Below are positions 7,064 through 48,784 of a stretch of 64,000 bases of DNA, piece after piece. A program made the position numbers and the translations under genes. The stretch's first letter is position 1; each line of letters opens with the position of its first letter. The stretch comes from Phaeobacter sp. G2 (lineage in GTDB: Bacteria > Pseudomonadota > Alphaproteobacteria > Rhodobacterales > Rhodobacteraceae): assembly GCA_025163595.1 (NCBI GenBank), contig CP104100.1, forward strand, positions 2,294,001-2,358,000, read 5' to 3'. The notes beneath the pieces were generated by a model. That model was given only the letters and a program-made list of their open reading frames with translations, had not been told where the DNA came from and searched no databases.

Positions 7064-7158
7064 CTTTGATTTTAATGTAAAAAATGGGTTTTGCGAGGTG
7101 AGCTGAGAAGTATGCCCTCTGCGAGTTTCCCAGTTTGTTTCCCGTTTTCTTGTTCTGT

Positions 7159-7587
7159 TCATGTTCTGGTCCTACGCGCCTGTGCCGATTGTGAAAGGCG
7201 CTTCTGGTTTGCTTGATTCCGGTACTTCTTGACCATCTCAAGCGTCTTGTGCCCGGTCACTGCCTGGATCTCGCTATCGCTCGCCCCGGCATCAGCGAGA
7301 TGCACCGCAGCGGTGTAGCGCCAGCCATGAATAACGTAGGCCTGAGCGCCGATTCTTTCGCGTACTGACATGACCCGCTGTTGGATTGTTCTCTTGGCTA
7401 CGCCTTTATGAAGCGATTGGGCTATTATAAAGCGCCCCTTCCGTGGCAGGTTATCTAGATACCGTCTCAAGAAACTAGGGCAGGCAACCCAAAGTCTGGT
7501 AGCCGTCTTCTCCTGAACTACGGAAATGAATTCACCGTCGTAGTGTTCCCATTGCATCGCAATCAGATCTCCAATCCGTTGACTTCC
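7159..7587 (-). pseudogene. Tyrosine integrase, C-terminal catalytic half
   Basis: The frame on the minus strand can be read from about 7587 and ends at 7159. It begins at QRIGDLIAMQWEHYDG, which carries the first catalytic Arg. It continues through IHGWRYTAAVHLADAG (the H-x-x-R box), TGHKTLEMV and KYRNQANQKR (the nucleophilic Tyr). The core-binding N-terminus is missing, and a stop codon lies just upstream at 7588-7590. It points toward the adjacent tRNA-Leu, the standard arrangement for a tRNA-targeted integrase. Its natural N-terminal partner appears to be the fragment at 8931-9407, now on the opposite strand. Confidence 0.85.
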
Positions 7588-42885: not shown

Positions 42886-47459
<4,574 letters not shown>

Positions 47460-47488
47460 GGGTATTTGGTCCACTTTTTTAGGCCGAG

Positions 47489-47503
47489 GTTCCGAAAAAG
47501 TTC
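47489..47503. promoter_or_regulatory. LexA (SOS) box GTTC-N7-GTTC, first
   Basis: GTTC at 47489-47492 and GTTC at 47500-47503 with exactly seven A-rich bases between match the alphaproteobacterial SOS box. Confidence 0.75.
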
Positions 47504-47509
47504 GCAAAT

Positions 47510-47524
47510 GTTCTCAAAAAGTTC
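47510..47524. promoter_or_regulatory. LexA (SOS) box GTTC-N7-GTTC, second
   Basis: GTTC at 47510-47513 and GTTC at 47521-47524, again seven bases apart, follow the first box by 21 bases (two helical turns). TAAAAT at 47540-47545 could be the -10 hexamer. Confidence 0.75.
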
Positions 47525-47627
47525 TTTACAGGGCAGGCGTAAAATGAGAACAAAAGAGCAACAAGGCCGACAGAGAGCGGCGCGGTGAAAACCTGAACCC
47601 CGACAGAGAGTAGTGGAGACAATTCTG

Positions 47628-47750
47628 ATGATGACCCAACTGAAGACAACCCTGCACAATGCCCAATCAACCCTGTTGCAGGATGCTATCGGCGCTGTTG
47701 CCCTAGTTGTAATGCTGATTGTTGCCCTTCACCTGCCGGGGTTTATGTAG
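47628..47750 (+). CDS. 40-residue SOS-controlled membrane protein
   Basis: The start ATG 47628 follows GTGGAG; a second ATG is next to it. The product has a polar N-terminus (MMTQLKTTLHNAQSTLLQD) and one membrane helix (AIGAVALVVMLIVALHLPGF). Two perfect LexA boxes lie about 105-140 bases upstream and a hairpin with seven T follows at 47938, so it forms its own damage-inducible transcript. Caulobacter SidA is a very small SOS-induced inner-membrane division inhibitor, and TisB-type SOS toxins are also tiny membrane proteins; this gene fits either pattern by context only. I cannot show homology. Confidence 0.7.
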   Translation: MMTQLKTTLHNAQSTLLQDAIGAVALVVMLIVALHLPGFM

Positions 47751-48254
47751 TCGCGCTGTCGTGACTGAGCATCCCCTTTTTCGCTAACCCTGGACCCCTA
47801 TCTTATTACTGCCTGCTGTCTTTATGTCATGTGCGCTGGCATCCATCCCGGTGCCTTTTGATCCCCGCCTGATCTATGACCGGTTGCGCCTAACAACCGG
47901 TTCGCGCACTTGAACCCCGCATGAAGACGCATTTCCTGCCGCCACCATCTGCCCGGATGTGTGGCGGCTTTTTTTGCCTCGCGGGGCTAAGTTATAGTTC
48001 TCATTCGGATGCCGCCCCAATGGCAGGCACCGACAAAAACAGGAACTGGCAAACGGGCACTGTCAGATCCTTCATCCTCACAAAATCCCCATGGCGTCTT
48101 TGGCCGGCGCTAAGGCCAGCACCTGGAATTGGCGCGCAGGCATTGGCTAATGCTGTCTCTTGTGGGTCGCTAGACTGATTGTTTGTGGCCTGTGTTAGAT
48201 CAACAGACCGATTGTATTTTAACAAAAAAACGATCTGTAGTTAGGATTCCGGCC
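47751..48254. other. Gap between the SOS gene and the Fe-S scaffold gene
   Basis: Apart from the terminator-like hairpin at 47938 this 504-base stretch shows no supported gene. Open frames near 47921-48178 lack ribosome sites and look like chance. Confidence 0.5.
47938..47975 (+). terminator. Hairpin with seven T
   Basis: GCCGCCAC (47938-47945) pairs with GTGGCGGC (47961-47968), followed by T7. The 15-base loop is long but the signal is otherwise standard. Confidence 0.65.
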
Positions 48255-48707
48255 CTAAGCGCAGTTTCTCTGCAAGGCCGCCTTGAAGGCTTCCAGGCTG
48301 GCTTCGAGGCAGAGCAGGATTGAGGCGTGACGGTTTTTGAATTCGCGTGCGGGAACAAGAACTTCCAAATCCGAAAACGGGGAATTGGGCGCAGGTTGGT
48401 CATCCTTCAGCATGGCTTTCAGCTCATCGCGTGCGGTTTCCACCTCGGCAAGGGAGCGTCCAATTATGTTGCGTCCAACAACCGAGGCAGAGGCCTGACC
48501 CAGCGCGCAGGCTTTGACATCCTGGCCAAATGCAGTGACGCGTCCGTCTTTGATGTTGAGATCAACTGTAACGGTTGACCCACACAGGGGGGCGCGTTTT
48601 TTTGCCGTCGCATCCGGGTGTTCCAGCCTGTCCAGAAAGGGAATATCGGCGGCGAGCGCCAGAATGCGGGACGAGTAGAGTTTGATCAGATCGGTTTCGC
48701 TAGACAT
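48255..48707 (-). CDS. Iron-sulfur cluster assembly scaffold protein (NifU/IscU-like)
   Basis: From ATG 48707 the 150-residue protein reads LIKLYSSRILALAADIPFLD, APLCGSTVTVDLNIKDGRV and QDVKACALGQASASVVGRNI, the NifU N-terminal fold. Cys in PLCGS and KACALGQAS correspond to two of the three cluster ligands. The third, near ILLCLEA, replaces the usual Cys-x-x-L. A longer start at 48749 is open but unlikely. It would carry nascent Fe-S clusters in the cytosol. It diverges from hisI. Confidence 0.8.
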   Translation of the reverse strand: MSSETDLIKLYSSRILALAADIPFLDRLEHPDATAKKRAPLCGSTVTVDLNIKDGRVTAFGQDVKACALGQASASVVGRNIIGRSLAEVETARDELKAMLKDDQPAPNSPFSDLEVLVPAREFKNRHASILLCLEASLEAFKAALQRNCA

Positions 48708-48784
48708 TGGCGGCCTTGGGCTTTCCCTTGGGGTTTCTTCCTCATACATAGGCAGACAAATGCAAGATGCAAAAGGTTTTTACG

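Follow-up and report, generated by a model that had tools for sequence, protein, structure and literature searches.

The window analyzed in this study is a stretch of 64,000 nucleotides (nt) from Phaeobacter sp. G2 (contig CP104100.1, genome positions 2294001-2358000). Downstream of recG it carries a 40-codon gene with LexA-type boxes, a conserved reading frame, a conserved helix face in its product, a structured 3' untranslated region (UTR), and an intrinsic terminator. By analogy with small division inhibitors of other bacteria, we suggest that this gene encodes an SOS-induced inner-membrane peptide of 40 amino acids (aa) that would stop division by docking on a protein of the divisome, for example FtsW, an explanation to which we give about an even chance. 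A preliminary description of the window had drawn attention to the gene; its observation is confirmed and its interpretation partly supported.

Counts refer, unless stated otherwise, to a set of 77 loci from the window's family (Rhodobacteraceae) in which the gene was found directly. Labels beginning with L and G denote loci and genomes, respectively.

Operator and promoter

Two perfect GTTC-N7-GTTC boxes, GTTCCGAAAAAGTTC at 47489-47503 and GTTCTCAAAAAGTTC at 47510-47524 (both on the plus strand), start 21 base pairs (bp) apart in front of the small frame, exactly as first described. The second of them is the LexA-type box conserved in the family. A perfect box is found at most 200 nt upstream of the open reading frame (ORF) in 76 of the 77 loci, whereas control windows placed elsewhere in the same loci gave a mean of 0.18 and never more than 2 of 77 (200 repeats). 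The only exception, L105 (upstream of the ORF, position 2408), has GTTC half-sites at N6 on both strands in an otherwise intact operator, possibly a shifted LexA spacing. The tandem pair, which the preliminary description had taken for the defining layout, is ruled out as a conserved one, being found only in the window and in its close relatives L032 and L036 (3/77). In L096, L097, and L107, overlapping boxes 11 bp apart share one GTTC half-site, which gives three half-sites in a row.

In the conserved operator unit a direct box precedes a near-box in inverted orientation, which mostly reads GTTG-N7-GTTC on the opposite strand and lies 38 bp downstream from start to start (66/77 loci at 38 bp, 72/77 at 37-40 bp). 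In the window the near-box, overlooked earlier, lies at 47548-47562 on the minus strand (GAACAAAAGAGCAAC; GTTGCTCTTTTGTTC as read on the minus strand), with 7 of 8 bases and at 38 bp from the conserved box. The operator consensus, derived from 67 loci, is GTTCnCaaATGTTCtcAaAAAGTTCTTTACa-N11-AnaTGAGAACAAAnggCAACA; most of these loci have TTTAC in the same place as the TTTACA of the window (47525-47530, plus strand). We infer that TTTACA is the -35 element and that the second site of the operator would overlap the -10 element and the start site. The operator model matches once in the window's genome, and its strict version, applied to 84,980 species genomes, yielded 26 matches, all 26 of which precede the small gene.

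GTTC-N7-GTTC occurs three times in the window, a count reached by 15 of 100 shuffles. The third match (7152-7166), near or inside predicted minus-strand frames, is likely due to chance.

Link to LexA and the SOS response

The lexA and recA genes of the window's genome have boxes of the same type just upstream (GTTCTATTCATGTTC and GTTCGCCTCTTGTTC, respectively), and GTTCN7GTTC is the reported LexA motif of Caulobacter in the available part of PMC12700426. The SOS-type promoter proposed earlier for a small predicted membrane protein is supported by the motif shared with lexA and recA and by the operator found in nearly all loci. The gene also tends to occur together with lexA: among the 89 family genomes, 80 have both the small gene and a lexA match over the cut-off, two have lexA only (G027 and G064), four the gene only, and three neither (G018, G039, and G069), an association with Fisher p 0.003 in a calculation that ignores kinship and includes several draft genomes. 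In two nearly or fully complete genomes, G039 (97%) and G079 (100%), no lexA match was found, and G079 keeps the small gene and its box.

The LexA-type operator at the promoter and the same motif in front of the host lexA are the sequence features expected of a LexA regulon member, and together they constitute strong sequence evidence that the small gene is under LexA control. Binding of the sites by a regulator other than LexA would explain the four genomes that hold the gene without a detected lexA; nevertheless, we regard it as very improbable in view of the motif upstream of lexA and recA, its agreement with the Caulobacter motif, and the lexA association. The accessible part of a LexA study in Dinoroseobacter shibae (PMC6473078) lists predicted sites, and the small gene is not mentioned there.

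Conservation and distribution of the small gene

The 40-residue frame with its own ribosome site was correctly recognized in the preliminary description: it occupies 47628-47750 on the plus strand and is preceded by GTGGAG (47613-47618), which is read in the sequence as a likely ribosome binding site. Lack of conservation in relatives would have spoken against the earlier interpretation; the gene is present in 84 of the 89 genomes of the window's family, the window's own genome included. The first search covered 146 genomes, 82 of which matched at E <= 10; 79 of these belong to the family, and all 79 family matches were examined. The 84 genomes comprise 77 loci found directly, L101 (read downstream of recG), G024, and five diverged copies. 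For G024 the initial match proved spurious, and the gene with its operator was located elsewhere (L221) by the operator model. Of the ten family genomes without a match, five carry a diverged copy behind recG (L141-L144 and L149), and weak members (E > 0.01) were admitted by position, operator, and family profile. The small gene is missing from the family genomes G018, G027, G039, G064, and G069. Most members have one copy per genome. The ratio of nonsynonymous to synonymous substitution rates (dN/dS) is 0.09 in 12 members of the genus, indicating purifying selection; judged by its coding sequence, the small gene encodes a real protein.

Outside the family, no convincing profile match to the small protein was found among 385 genomes of the class. 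At E 0.1, 37 of these genomes matched, the convincing ones being five of the window's family (7e-14 or better); the other 32 begin at E 0.008 and are mostly segments of long frames, and a wider distribution was dropped for that reason. Spread by phages or plasmids was likewise dropped, since tblastn at E 0.1 gave no match in either collection. A homology search at E <= 1 returned 165 homologues. Among the 120 matches listed there is no functional name and no Pfam domain, only "hypothetical" or "uncharacterized" protein. Carriers known by name, from these homologues and from the 26 operator matches, include Phaeobacter, Sulfitobacter, Roseobacter (with Roseobacter denitrificans among the homologues), and Tritonibacter. 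No Pfam or NCBIfam family matches the 40-aa protein at E 1, and searches of the openly licensed PubMed Central (PMC) literature listed nothing that names the gene or its RNA.

The upstream neighbor is recG (45369-47459, plus strand; NCBIfam RecG equivalog model NF008164), which adjoins the small gene in 74 of the 77 loci at a distance of 67-312 nt. In G024, G039, and G069 only weaker Mfd-like helicase matches were seen, with no match at the recG level; G024 despite that keeps the small gene and its operator elsewhere (L221). A convergently oriented NifU/SufU-like gene (48255-48749, minus strand) follows in the window and is present in the available flank of 56/77 loci; it is mentioned here as context only.

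A predicted single-helix membrane protein

The product is predicted to be a very small membrane protein with a single helix. It has exactly 40 residues in 62 of the 77 proteins, and a hydrophobic 18-residue segment is present in all of them (lowest mean Kyte-Doolittle hydropathy 1.7). Lysine and arginine together average 2.4 in the first 18 residues and 0.03 afterwards. AlphaFold2 models a single helix over residues 2-39 (predicted local distance difference test score 81, predicted template modeling score 0.42).

All 76 aligned sequences have D19, and at least 90% of them have G22, L34, and P37; two relatives outside this alignment, L142 and L297, have E in place of D19. Conservation over residues 19-38 is periodic, with a peak (p 0.006 versus shuffles) at a helical angle of 100 degrees, and D19, G22, L26, L30, A/G33, and P37 lie on a common helix face. 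Only one acidic residue is found on this face, and a charged stripe is missing. Since conservation lies on one face of the helix, a specific membrane partner probably fits better than a lipid-disrupting peptide.

The leader and the toxin alternative

TisB and DinQ of Escherichia coli are SOS-induced single-helix membrane peptides. A toxin of this kind, which would depolarize the membrane and drive dormancy under RNA control, would account for the size of the product, its single helix, the LexA-type boxes, and the RNA-rich transcript. The preliminary description had pointed to possible RNA control through CCGACAGAGAG, which is indeed repeated in the leader of the window at 47567-47577 and 47600-47610 (leader segment 47567-47610, plus strand). 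The repeat is a trait of the window's close relatives, lacking in the short leaders of most others: counted from the inferred start, the leader of the window is about 68 nt long, versus a family median of 30 nt (73 loci). It is also unstructured (fold z -0.11), and RNA control by the repeat was rejected. Folding of the 3' UTR back on the leader was rejected too, since pairing with the own partner (-29.5 kcal/mol) is no better than with exchanged partners (-30.1 kcal/mol, 64 loci). Thus, neither a structured leader nor fold-back control in the manner of TisB or DinQ was found in these comparisons, and what the small protein would share with these peptides is SOS induction and a single helix. 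Together with the conservation on one helix face, its single acid, and the missing charged stripe, this makes a depolarizing toxin rather unlikely in our judgement.

Structured RNA and terminator in the 3' UTR

The hairpin with a T7 tract noted downstream of the gene is real, though it lies about 190 nt past the stop codon. It spans 47938-47975 on the plus strand (stem 47938-47950 with 47955-47968, T7 at 47969-47975), and a 56-nt fold of it gives z -3.3. A fold-based search found a terminator in 68 of 76 loci, compared with 19 of 77 in a strict search for exact stems; the distance between the stop codon and the terminator, measurable in the same number of loci (68/76), has a median of 181 nt.

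The 3' UTR holds a structured RNA (47806-47974, plus strand), overlooked in the preliminary description, with an outer stem, 47814-47836 pairing with 47904-47931, and inner hairpins at 47838-47855, 47860-47874, and 47878-47902. The 3' UTR of the window folds to -77.0 kcal/mol versus -54.6 for shuffles (standard deviation 4.0; z -5.62, 0 of 200 shuffles), and the UTR bodies have a mean fold z of -2.5. When 47748-47890 is folded alone, the result is not unusual (z -0.52), because this segment does not include the 3' half of the outer stem. The outer stem joining the UTR ends appears in 59 of 68 single-sequence folds, 20.2 being expected.

The structure was assigned manually, using 11 relatives that do not belong to the window's genus. 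In these, two-sided changes affect 17 pairs (6.9 in shuffles), and the paired share of cells is 88%, versus 36-44% for slid versions, counts that lean towards the structure because it was chosen on the same sequences. The fair tests are therefore the single-sequence folds and the search with a model outside its training set. The model built from the 11 relatives (R2) scores 63.8 bits in the window (E 5e-16) and matches at the expected place in 75 of 84 sources, including 64 of the 73 that were not in training; no match was obtained in L075, L083, L094, L100, L103 (cut by the contig end), L108, L144, L149, and L221. In the model-fitted alignment of 77 rows, two of them stray minus-strand rows, 444 cells changed on both sides versus 110. 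The 121 genomes searched within the order all belong to the same family; 107 of them match at E 0.001 and 105 at 29 bits or more; the latter figure is safer, since two matches are below 27 bits and that of G061 lies away from its gene. The five genomes without the small gene gave nothing better than E 0.019, nor did G024 and G066, which have it.

The window's genome contains one strong copy of the RNA, the next best R2 match reaching 17 bits, and no Rfam family matches window positions 47400-48300 at E 1. In eight relatives Rfam gave only weak Ysr141 matches elsewhere, on the minus strand and far below the gathering score. With 24 aligned UTRs as input, RNAalifold gave no structure beyond the terminator.

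Bacterial small RNAs (sRNAs) derived from 3' UTRs are likewise structured RNAs that lie between a stop codon and an intrinsic terminator. The RNA described here has the same placement; it differs in matching no Rfam family. Whether it has any action of its own is evenly balanced in our view, for it could be a mere element of messenger RNA (mRNA) stability or termination. It ends in the terminator, and all 44 of the 107 matches that were examined lie behind a small gene frame, 43 of them with a perfect box within 200 nt. On the other side, its length of about 170 nt, its compensatory changes, and its repeated words exceed the needs of a terminator: in 68 loci, CTGCCTG was found in 51 UTRs versus 2.3 expected, and CTGTCCC in 44 versus 1.9. 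We do not claim CTGTCCC as a loop motif; at least five bases are unpaired in 33 of 69 TGTCCC copies, a count for which no baseline was computed. The 3' UTR is a conserved structured RNA that may serve message stability or act in trans.

Discussion

The proposed division inhibitor would act as follows. LexA would bind both sites of the operator and close the promoter, which RecA-driven cleavage of LexA would open. The peptide would insert into the membrane with its lysine- and arginine-bearing N terminus inside, and the D19-G22-L26-L30-A/G33-P37 face would pack against a membrane partner belonging to the septal wall machinery, for example FtsW. Division would resume once LexA returns. As to the 3' UTR, it would either shield the mRNA or be set free as an sRNA.

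The closest precedent is SidA of Caulobacter crescentus, a 29-residue inner-membrane protein acting on FtsW, as described in the available text of PMC4211646, where DidA is reported to act on FtsN; in Caulobacter, a lexA mutant filaments owing to sidA (PMC12700426, also available in part). Compared by description, the two proteins share SOS control through GTTC-N7-GTTC boxes and a very small size with a single inner-membrane helix, the SOS control and the helix being predictions for the protein studied here; no SidA name occurs among the 120 homologues listed. Differences are the length (40 versus 29 aa), the N-terminal part of 18 residues, the two opposed operator sites, the structured 3'-UTR RNA, and the restriction of convincing profile matches to the window's family among the 385 class genomes. 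The new peptide would work like SidA, the conserved face of its helix probably binding to a protein of the divisome. YneA, SosA, and ChiZ are likewise SOS-induced division inhibitors with one membrane helix; according to the accessible part of PMC13396833, YneA binds to FtsW through its helix, and models of low confidence put SidA, SosA, and ChiZ at FtsW too. YneA carries in addition an extracellular LysM domain, which the 40-aa protein does not have.

An SOS-induced regulator of a membrane protein outside division, such as a protease, a transporter, or a respiratory or envelope complex, would be served equally well by the conserved face, and no data point names FtsW. We consider this doubtful, given that in the cited papers, as far as their available text goes, those small SOS-induced membrane proteins that have been studied best target the septal wall machinery.

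Several observations weigh against the proposed control and function of the peptide. The small gene occurs without a lexA match over the cut-off in G031, G038, G043, and G079, three of which are draft genomes with a completeness of 74-86%. Taken by itself, the motif shows no enrichment, with 102 occurrences in the genome versus 139 for the reversed control, so that the significance of the boxes derives from their conservation across loci and not from motif frequency. A scan with the sigma-70 consensus reported no promoter here. Finally, the net charge of the helix flanks leaves the topology unsettled, being higher on the N side in 26 of the 77 proteins, equal in 34, and lower in 17.

The division-inhibitor explanation can be extended, more tentatively, to one SOS transcript with two effectors, a divisome-freezing membrane peptide and a new sRNA family from the 3' UTR that would reprogram other mRNAs through the C-rich CUGCCUG and CUGUCCC words; this is possible, though we do not hold it to be probable. 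How division is controlled after DNA damage is, to our knowledge, understood for few bacteria. The direct and inverted sites flanking the promoter would make a natural subject for work on LexA binding. If the division-inhibitor explanation is true, the abundant marine group that includes Phaeobacter, Sulfitobacter, and Roseobacter would gain its likely checkpoint protein, one that as yet has no name, and an SOS gene would be joined to a conserved RNA; if both effectors are real, they would together form the checkpoint with which an entire marine family of bacteria responds to DNA damage.
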